Shown here: positions 30,995 through 42,049 of the stretch, one piece after another
Layout: each line of letters begins with the position of its first letter
Numbering within the stretch: position 1 is the stretch's first letter
Source: Halosimplex halophilum
Lineage (GTDB): Archaea > Halobacteriota > Halobacteria > Halobacteriales > Haloarculaceae
Reading direction: 5' to 3'
NCBI RefSeq assembly: GCF_004698125.1
Contig: NZ_ML214297.1
Location: forward strand, 310,001 to 374,000
Length of the DNA stretch: 64,000 bases
Position numbers and translations under genes: made by a program
The notes under the pieces: generated by a model
Told to the model about the DNA's origin: nothing
What the model saw: only the letters and a program-made list of their open reading frames with translations
The model's database searches: none

Positions 30995-31330
30995 TCAGCG
31001 CAGCAGCCGCACGTCCGTCACCGGCTCGGGGTGGACGATGCGGAACCCGTTCGCTGTCCGGGAGCGGCCGAGCGTCGCCGGCGCCCGCCGGCTGGACCCG
31101 TAGGGACTGTCGTCGGCGATGCCCTCGTAGGGGCTGTCCCCGCCGGCCGGACGGTAGGGCGTCGCTTCCTCCTCCTCGTCGGTCCGCTCCGGCGGGAGGT
31201 AGATCCGCTCGCCCGACGCCGAGCGGACGACCGTCGCCACCCGGCGCTGGCCCGTCACCTCGATGGTCGTCCGCCCGTCCTCGATGTCCACGTCGACCGA
31301 GACCGGTCCCCCGGCGTTCGTCCCGCTCAT
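30995..31330 (-). CDS. Hypothetical haloarchaeal protein (111 aa)
   Basis: 111 residues. The first half is a small all-beta domain (VSVDVDIEDGRTTIEVTGQRRVATVVRSASGERIYLPPE) with no enzyme motif; the second half is flexible and contains two similar units DSPYEG and DSPYGS, then a basic RRAPATLGRSRTANGFR stretch and a last strand IVHPEPVTDVRLL. Not recognised. Start ATG 31330 follows a TATA-like GTTAAG about 31 nt upstream on the minus strand. It is convergent with the GT4 gene and faces the repeat-rich stretch on its upstream side. Confidence 0.55.
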   Translation of the reverse strand: MSGTNAGGPVSVDVDIEDGRTTIEVTGQRRVATVVRSASGERIYLPPERTDEEEEATPYRPAGGDSPYEGIADDSPYGSSRRAPATLGRSRTANGFRIVHPEPVTDVRLLR

Positions 31331-31556
31331 GTATCGACCGCCGGCCGAGAGCGACTTAACTGTTCGCGTCGCCGCGGAACTGGCGCGCGGGACGGGTGAG
31401 GGAGTGCGGTGCGGTCGGCGCGCGCTGGAGCGCGCTTTCATGCGCGCGACGGAACCGCGCGAGGGATGAGCGAGTGAGCGGCGCGAACGAGCGAATCGGC
31501 TGGGGAGGTGTGTGGCCGTCTGCGGTGCTGTGCGGGGCGGTGCTGTCCCTGGCGGA

Positions 31557-31675
31557 CTGAAAGGGCGAGGCGCGCTCGCGTGCAGTTCAGTCGCCTGAGC
31601 GGGCACTATCCGCGCGGGCGGTGCGGAGAGCGCGGATATCCCGCTCAGCGACCGCGAGCGCGGCGAGGGCTTTCA
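31557..31675. repeat. Long imperfect inverted repeat
   Basis: The two arms start and end with CTGAAAG / CTTTCA. Inner arms CTGAGCGGG-cac-TATCCGCGC (31595-31615) and GCGCGGATA-t-CCCGCTCAG (31630-31648) pair over 18 bp with one bulge, around a 14-nt loop. CGCGCTCGCG (31571-31580) also pairs with CGCGAGCGCG on the other side. The whole could fold as an about 50-bp cruciform or an RNA hairpin. Confidence 0.6.
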
Positions 31676-31752
31676 CTGCTCACCGTCGAGTGCGGTCGTG
31701 ATCGCTGCTAGCGAGCGGGCCGAGGGCTTTCAGCGTTCGCTGTCGAGTGCGG
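31664..31752. repeat. Two 32-nt direct repeats, 57 nt apart
   Basis: 31664-31695 and 31721-31752 share CGAGGGCTTTCA at the start and GTCGAGTGCGG at the end, with eight less-similar bases between. Copy one overlaps the right arm of the long inverted repeat, so this could be the edge of a repeated element. Confidence 0.5.
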
Positions 31753-31847
31753 CCGCCTCGTTCACCGCGGTCAGTGACAGACACGACATCGTCGACAGAA
31801 TCGCGCACACCGCAAACCCGAAGGCGGAGACGCGCGCAGGTAGGGGC

Positions 31848-41712: not shown

Positions 41713-42049
41713 AGATCTGACCAGGGCTTCCGTCTCCTGTGGCCGTGACTAGATGCCCTCGGAAACGCCGTCTCCCCTCAGAATAGTGGCCTCGGCACTC
41801 ATAGGGGTCGTCACGGCCGGGTCGTCAGGCCGGCTCGGAGTCGCGAGTCGTCATCGGCCGGCCGAGCCTACGCGGCCGTCCGGCAAGTCGGTTTCCACCG
41901 CGGACGACGACGCGCCGACCACGCCGTCGGCGAGTAACGGCGCGTTTCCGGGCGTAACCTCGGGTTGTCGCGGCCTCGGACGCGATAACGACCGGTTTCG
42001 TCGGCTACCCGGCGGCTAACTAAGCCCGTGCCGCCGCAAGGGTGCGTGC
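41713..42049. other. Gene-free stretch beside the PIN gene
   Basis: 337 nt. One plus-strand reading (41753-42019) stays open for 88 codons, but it lacks a promoter at the proper distance and its composition (Ser/Pro/Arg) is not coding-like. The expected antitoxin is absent. The last 35 nt carry a TATA-like AACTAAG for the next gene. Confidence 0.5.
41834..41846 (+). repeat. 13-nt direct repeat, right copy
   Basis: CTCGGAGTCGCGA, identical to 41105-41117; see the left copy. Confidence 0.35.

Follow-up and report, generated by a model that had tools for sequence, protein, structure and literature searches.

A haloarchaeal family of structured intergenic repeats, probably mobile and non-autonomous, with a conserved core hairpin and tandem tails

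Introduction

What is the long inverted repeat that lies between two genes of Halosimplex halophilum? It stands in a window of 64,000 nucleotides, the whole stretch of DNA analysed here, and a preliminary description from the letters placed it at 31557–31675 in a stretch with no gene. It could, on that account, be a structured RNA, a palindromic mobile remnant or a DNA supercoil or nucleoid signal, unless chance pairing of GC-rich DNA explains it. We consider it likely to be one copy of a haloarchaeal family of non-autonomous mobile intergenic repeats.

The window copy sits within an alpha-glucan gene cluster (GH77, GT4, DUF7510, GH13 and a GH15/glucodextranase-type protein). Its neighbours are the DUF7510 gene on the minus strand, starting at 31330, and the GH13 gene, starting at about 31848. 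Many unrelated genes adjoin the other copies, so no tie to the alpha-glucan pathway is claimed.

Results

The hairpin in the window

The inverted repeat proved exact, with pairing at 31554–31675. Its outermost block joins TGAAAG (31558–31563) to CTTTCA (31670–31675). Inside are a 12-pair block, in which the pair 31570–31663 is a G-G mismatch in the window copy, then one block of four pairs and two of nine, CTGAGCGGG/CCCGCTCAG and TATCCGCGC/GCGCGGATA. The 18-bp inner stem described earlier is these last two blocks together, parted by a conserved internal loop with CAC opposite T. The end motif said to recur downstream is CTTTCA at 31727–31732, exactly 57 bp 3′ of the first right end. None of the called genes overlaps the element, as the description had it.

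Judged by folding energy by itself, the hairpin does not exceed what chance gives in DNA this rich in GC. The z-score is −1.59 at 31540–31690, where 12 of 200 shuffles are equally stable, and −1.12 at 31405–31680, where 25 of 200 are. What sets the hairpin beyond chance is the family recurrence and the covariation, not the energy. No Rfam family matches the window element at gathering scores, and a search of six loci with the limit at E = 1 gave none either.

Copies and distribution

With up to three mismatches allowed, the 4.47-Mb genome of the window contains the 21-nt left signature TGGYGGACTGAAMGGGCGAGG 88 times, 44 times on each strand, and the reversed pattern serving as control 0 times. 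Seven other Halosimplex genomes hold 17–98 signatures each (reversed pattern, 0–2). Three genomes of another family hold 66, 64 and 9, and two genomes from other genera of the same family 0 and 2.

Searching the own genome with 31540–31690, with the best 40 of 355 candidates scored, gave at least 79 matches, among which 40, query included, are long and 83–100% identical. BLAST with the core, the check proposed for copies across haloarchaeal genomes, found matches in 47 of 97 relatives, some of them short. The covariance model R1 matches 74 of the 195 genomes sampled from the order (E ≤ 0.001) and 7 of the 148 sampled from the phylum, all seven being within the same order.

Among the matches listed, the named hosts include Halosimplex, Halorussus, Haloparvum, Halonotius, Natronomonas, Natronolimnohabitans, Haladaptatus and Halapricum. 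Loci of genome G003 are 100% identical to named Halosimplex pelagicum R2 loci over 2,566 and 3,195 bp. Seven haloarchaeal plasmid records carry matches. Carriage by viruses was considered and dropped, as no phage record matches the element and no viral contig matches by exact pattern. We found no description of the repeat family in the open-access literature, and one may exist elsewhere.

Core structure and covariation

We gathered 62 cores of 103–135 nt, leaving out longer cores and opposite-strand matches, and 41 of them, without near-duplicates, make up alignment A1. The structure has 41 pairs in three helices, and 93.4% of the alignment cells pair. Compensatory double changes occur at 19 of the 41 pairs, against a shuffle mean of 6.3 (sd 1.6), and 0 of 500 shuffles reach 19. 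RNAalifold, unaided, gives 33 pairs, 15 of them with double changes.

The unpaired features are also conserved in the core: a CGAG/CGAG tandem G.A step, a GG/GG mismatch and a CNC/T internal loop. A kink-turn reading of the CGAG/CGAG loop was considered and is not claimed. The Halonotius copies preserve the ends and differ in the interior.

Chance GC-rich pairing is compatible with folding z-scores of merely −1.6 and −1.1, and energy would not by itself dismiss it. It had been thought likelier should no homologous copies exist; copies are plentiful, 88 against the control of 0. Moreover, sliding the partner strand drops the core pairing from 93% to 31–47% and the covariation collapses. The copy count and the covariation together rule out a chance fold, leaving it a negligible probability, and the hairpin is treated below as a member of the repeat family.

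Anatomy of the element

The whole element spans about 350 bp, 31405–31757, on the plus strand, where all parts given here lie. Its outer limits are approximate and come from 14-mer recurrence in the own genome and from genomes G002 and G004, which are without the stretch. Over 41 other own-genome copies, the 14-mer support sets in at about 31405, ends at about 31745–31757 and is absent beyond. The order from 5′ to 3′ is hairpin 1, hairpin 2, GGCTGGGGAGG, GTGGCCGTCTGCGGTGCTGTGCGG, a GC-rich spacer, the core and the tail units.

Hairpin 1 of the 5′ domain (31417–31464) has an outer helix CGCGCG/CGCGCG around a replaceable inner hairpin. It was compared over 77 sequences, of which one, within the GH13 gene, is spurious, and its outer helix was counted in 75 of the 77. 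Hairpin 2 lies at 31466–31498, and sequence comparison by eye finds unrelated hairpins in its place elsewhere. Read by eye, both hairpins are swapped in sequence from copy to copy with the pairing kept.

The conserved GGCTGGGGAGG and GTGGCCGTCTGCGGTGCTGTGCGG follow at 31498–31535, with 14-mers found in up to 36–38 of the 41 other own copies, and by eye the region is recognisable also in other genera. Within it, GGGGAGGnnnGTG (window 31498–31535) resembles a Shine-Dalgarno site. A start codon follows GGGGAGG-nnn in 36 of 42 own copies. A leader peptide after GGGGAGG-nnn-GTG was rejected, since the frames relative to the core split 18, 8 and 10 (frames 0, 1 and 2) and so no reading frame is conserved.

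The GC-rich spacer (31536–31547) varies in length, and over 38 own copies GGGGAGG and the core are 35–123 bases apart. The left foot and the left arm (CCTGGCGGACTGAAAGGGCGAGGCGCGCTCGCG) occupy 31548–31580 and carry the 88-fold signature. The core hairpin, 122 nt in the window at 31554–31675, has CGAG/CGAG, GG/GG and CAC/T internal loops, and is defined by the covariation and R1. Its right side is the first right arm (CGCGAGCGCGGCGAGGGCTTTCA) at 31653–31675. The right-end pattern occurs at 138 places in the own genome, tail units counted in, and the control at 1.

Six core forms are long (L042, L057, L058, L059 and L060 in the own genome and L088 in G003), because extra near-perfect hairpins lie within the core. 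L041 has a similar two-hairpin cassette (GCGAGGCGC...GCGCCTCGATGCGAACGGC...) in its 5′ domain, so that elements seem to exchange hairpins or to take them up inside one another.

Tandem tails

The tail unit of the window copy is 57 bp (31676–31732), a 35-bp linker plus a second right arm at 31711–31732. The onset of a further linker follows at 31733–31757, after which the 14-mer similarity stops. Among 36 own copies, 12 have no tail unit, 18 have one, three have two and three have three. Exactly 57 bp is the length in 27 of these 33 units, and 51, 53, 54, 56 and 95 bp are also seen. A coding tail, for which 57 bp would be 19 codons, was discarded in view of these other lengths.

Of ten within-copy pairs of tail units, five are 95–100% identical, versus a between-copy mean of 71%. 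These near-identical units point to local tandem duplication. A CRISPR-like array was rejected, since the linkers of the 57-bp units are alike between copies, with a mean identity of 63%. In other genera, too, the right arm recurs downstream. Read by eye, Halorussus halobius shows an approximate period of 48, bin QH_7_69_31 one of 60 and Haloparvum one of 75.

One G003 locus (L081:598–942) has four further right arms, and its units alternate between 57- and 54-bp types. It looks as if a unit pair had been duplicated there.

Occupied and empty sites

At the window site, the core is present in genomes G003 and G007. In G002 and G004, both flanks align and the element is missing, with 428 and 432 bp absent (window 31375–31803 and about 31370–31802, respectively) and 68 and 6 bp in their place. 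In G006, parts of the 5′ domain and the tail remain and the core hairpin is gone.

Anchors from ten other own loci located 28 places orthologous to them in the genomes G002, G003 and G006, and R1 matches nine of the 28. Among the 19 places without an R1 match, many have just one flank aligned, the fetched flank being 1.5 kb. Sites with both flanks aligned are empty for L038 in G002 and G006, for L037 in G002, G003 and G006 (one G006 flank at just 71% identity) and for L054 in G002. The clear absences thus total eight locus-genome pairs at four loci, the window included, and occupied orthologues exist for three of the four: window, L038 and L054.

The aligned genes are about 7–18% apart between the species, so junctions and target duplications are unreadable at the empty sites. 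The pattern of presence and absence could partly be loss rather than gain. The mobile part of the earlier proposal is well supported by the many copies, their intergenic positions and the occupied and empty orthologous sites; a lone remnant gives way to a large living family.

Seven of the 80 named loci among the matches listed hold two copies with their 5′ ends facing, 181–210 bp apart. These inverted pairs are L147, L149, L152, L162, L168, L175 and L181, six of the loci being from bin HArc-gm2 and one from SW_7_65_23. The 5′ ends face each other in all inverted core pairs among the matches listed.

Neighbouring genes

Genes around the copies were called by codon usage with a caller trained on the window. 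Overlap with a called gene was seen in none of the 36 own and none of the 63 named copies, and in one of the 26 others. With nine copies at locus edges left out, 116 copies were placed: 38 tandem-sense, 15 tandem-antisense, 32 divergent and 31 convergent. Between co-directional genes, sense copies outnumber antisense ones (38 vs 15, p 0.002). Convergent sites are commoner than in the background, where they make up 24 of 201 gaps (p 0.001), both statistics including copies orthologous to each other and hence not independent. The own-genome copies alone give 9 sense vs 5 antisense, which is not significant. One copy lies near an archaeal RNase P RNA gene (L059:2036–2443, minus strand).

No partner gene family recurs beside the copies when the ORFs near them are clustered and judged by eye. 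A cis-linked gene was rejected, as the largest clusters of recurring ORFs are mostly ORFs through the element or common families such as ABC ATPases. The surroundings of the copies examined yielded no partner gene, nor did the DNA enclosed by two facing pairs in the own genome; the genes enclosed there are, by eye, methyltransferase-like and amidohydrolase-like.

Search for a mover

One rival is a REP/BIME-type element, or a PATE-type one derived from IS200/IS605, with a Y1 (HUH) transposase as its mover. The palindromes, the extragenic positions, the many copies and the inverted pairs of some genomes would fit it. Haloarchaea are known to carry PATEs (PMC3119063), which, like the repeat here, are palindrome-rich with no coding capacity. 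They are without terminal inverted repeats, with ends like the IS605-type, according to the account consulted (PMC3119063), whereas the core here bears such repeats. REPs are given as 20–40 bp (PMC3733652, in the part consulted), against a core here of about 120 bp.

The own genome has no intact Y1 (RAYT) transposase. Its sole Y1-like frame (L245:1378–2031; G000 C1, about 1202860) covers profile positions 1–90 of 121 and is apparently a truncated remnant. The end motifs are absent from the genome's four TnpB loci and from this one Y1 locus, and a TnpB/omega-RNA or IS605 origin was rejected on that ground. Movement by a Y1 enzyme is accordingly very improbable in our estimate. The repeat family does resemble MITEs in its terminal inverted repeats, namely the left and right arms, and in having no recurrent ORF.

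RNA or DNA level

P1, the outer helix of hairpin 1, has 41 C>T vs 2 G>A changes in 75 of the 77 sequences. Sense-strand G-U is thus kept and A-C avoided, as expected for RNA, although strand mutation bias or shared ancestry could produce the same asymmetry. The uncompensated changes of the core are 29 G-U-making vs 20 A-C-making (p 0.25). Hence RNA-level selection is suggested by one helix and not by the core.

Of 62 cores, 60 fold better as sense than as antisense strand, and so do 70 of the 76 5′ domains. Dinucleotide shuffles show the same bias, so it was discarded as evidence for RNA.

One alternative is a functional structured RNA class, whose sense RNA, from read-through or its own promoter, would serve the host or bind a protein, dispersal being secondary. 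The strong covariation with the conserved non-Watson-Crick features, the P1 asymmetry and the sense excess between co-directional genes speak for it. Nevertheless, the covariation fits a DNA hairpin as well and the core is without the G-U/A-C asymmetry, because of which a structured-RNA function is not demonstrated. Upstream of 31405, 14-mer recurrence over the own copies reveals no promoter-like conservation. Copy numbers of 0 to 98 across genomes would be odd for a needed RNA, and the sense excess is not significant within the own genome. A structured RNA, as first proposed, is compatible with these data; as the main function, we regard it as unlikely. For a supercoil or nucleoid signal, also proposed at first, the data speak neither for nor against.

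Another is an archaeal mobile structured RNA, a counterpart of SINEs, with a sense transcript that would be the protein-binding unit recognised, processed or copied by a putative partner protein. That transcript would fold into a conserved protein-binding substrate with the tandem G.A loop, whose single left arm might take one or another of several right arms as its partner. We hold this quite unlikely.

Discussion

The reading as a mobile, non-autonomous repeat family can be put as a tentative scheme. In every copy a single left arm closes the conserved core hairpin, and right arms, at least one, stand in tandem with a genus-specific period; the Halosimplex copies add a 5′ domain of two exchangeable hairpins. 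A putative enzyme acting in trans may spread the copies by reading their folded ends. Selection would remove insertions inside genes, so that copies are tolerated only between them. Slippage between right arms may lengthen or shorten the tails. Many copies are probably read through from neighbouring genes and so co-transcribed as predicted folded RNA, which may alter termination or stability.

The family architecture is best read as resembling that of the pneumococcal BOX elements. In the portion of PMC3049150 consulted, BOX elements are modular, multicopy repeats between genes, with a strong predicted RNA structure and a unit whose tandem number varies; they are geneless and thought parasitic, and the expression of copies was measured. 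The Halosimplex repeat is likewise modular, intergenic, geneless and multicopy, with 0–3 tail units in each of the 36 own copies, a likeness of architecture only. However, BOX belongs to another domain of life and repeats a separate middle module, whereas the family here multiplies the right arm of its main hairpin. The haloarchaeal repeat, moreover, is known here from sequence, in contrast to the measured BOX expression, and homology is not claimed. SPRITE elements are enriched near convergent 3′ ends in the same source, and the copies here are also enriched at convergent sites.

BOX would then be the closest in architecture, and the small mobile repeats of Haloquadratum the closest in host group, core size and the riddle of the mover. 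As portrayed in the relevant part of PMC3119063, SMR-A is haloarchaeal, transposase-free and present in tens of copies, with terminal inverted repeats that are prominent and a core measuring about 110 bp. The mode of moving of these small mobile repeats is called enigmatic there. The cores here, 103–135 nt over the 62 collected, also have terminal inverted repeats, the comparison being by description. The insertion sites of SMR-A are palindromes belonging to PATEs and IS605-type elements (PMC3119063, same part); the copies here lie between ordinary genes, and none is at the four TnpB loci. The tandem tails and the 5′ domain of the repeat here go unmentioned for SMR-A in that part of PMC3119063. 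In the main text of a survey of REPs in bacteria and archaea, as available to us, 'Halo' does not occur (PMC12306157).

Conserved in structure, the repeat family reaches tens of copies per genome within several lineages of a single archaeal order, and R1 provides a working covariance model for it. It raises the question of what moves the transposase-free repeats of haloarchaea. Were the family transcribed, many intergenic regions would hold members of a large RNA class that is not annotated.

Elsewhere in the window, an Rfam match at 41788–41859 on the minus strand corresponds to the sR-tMet box C/D guide RNA, with 67.2 bits.
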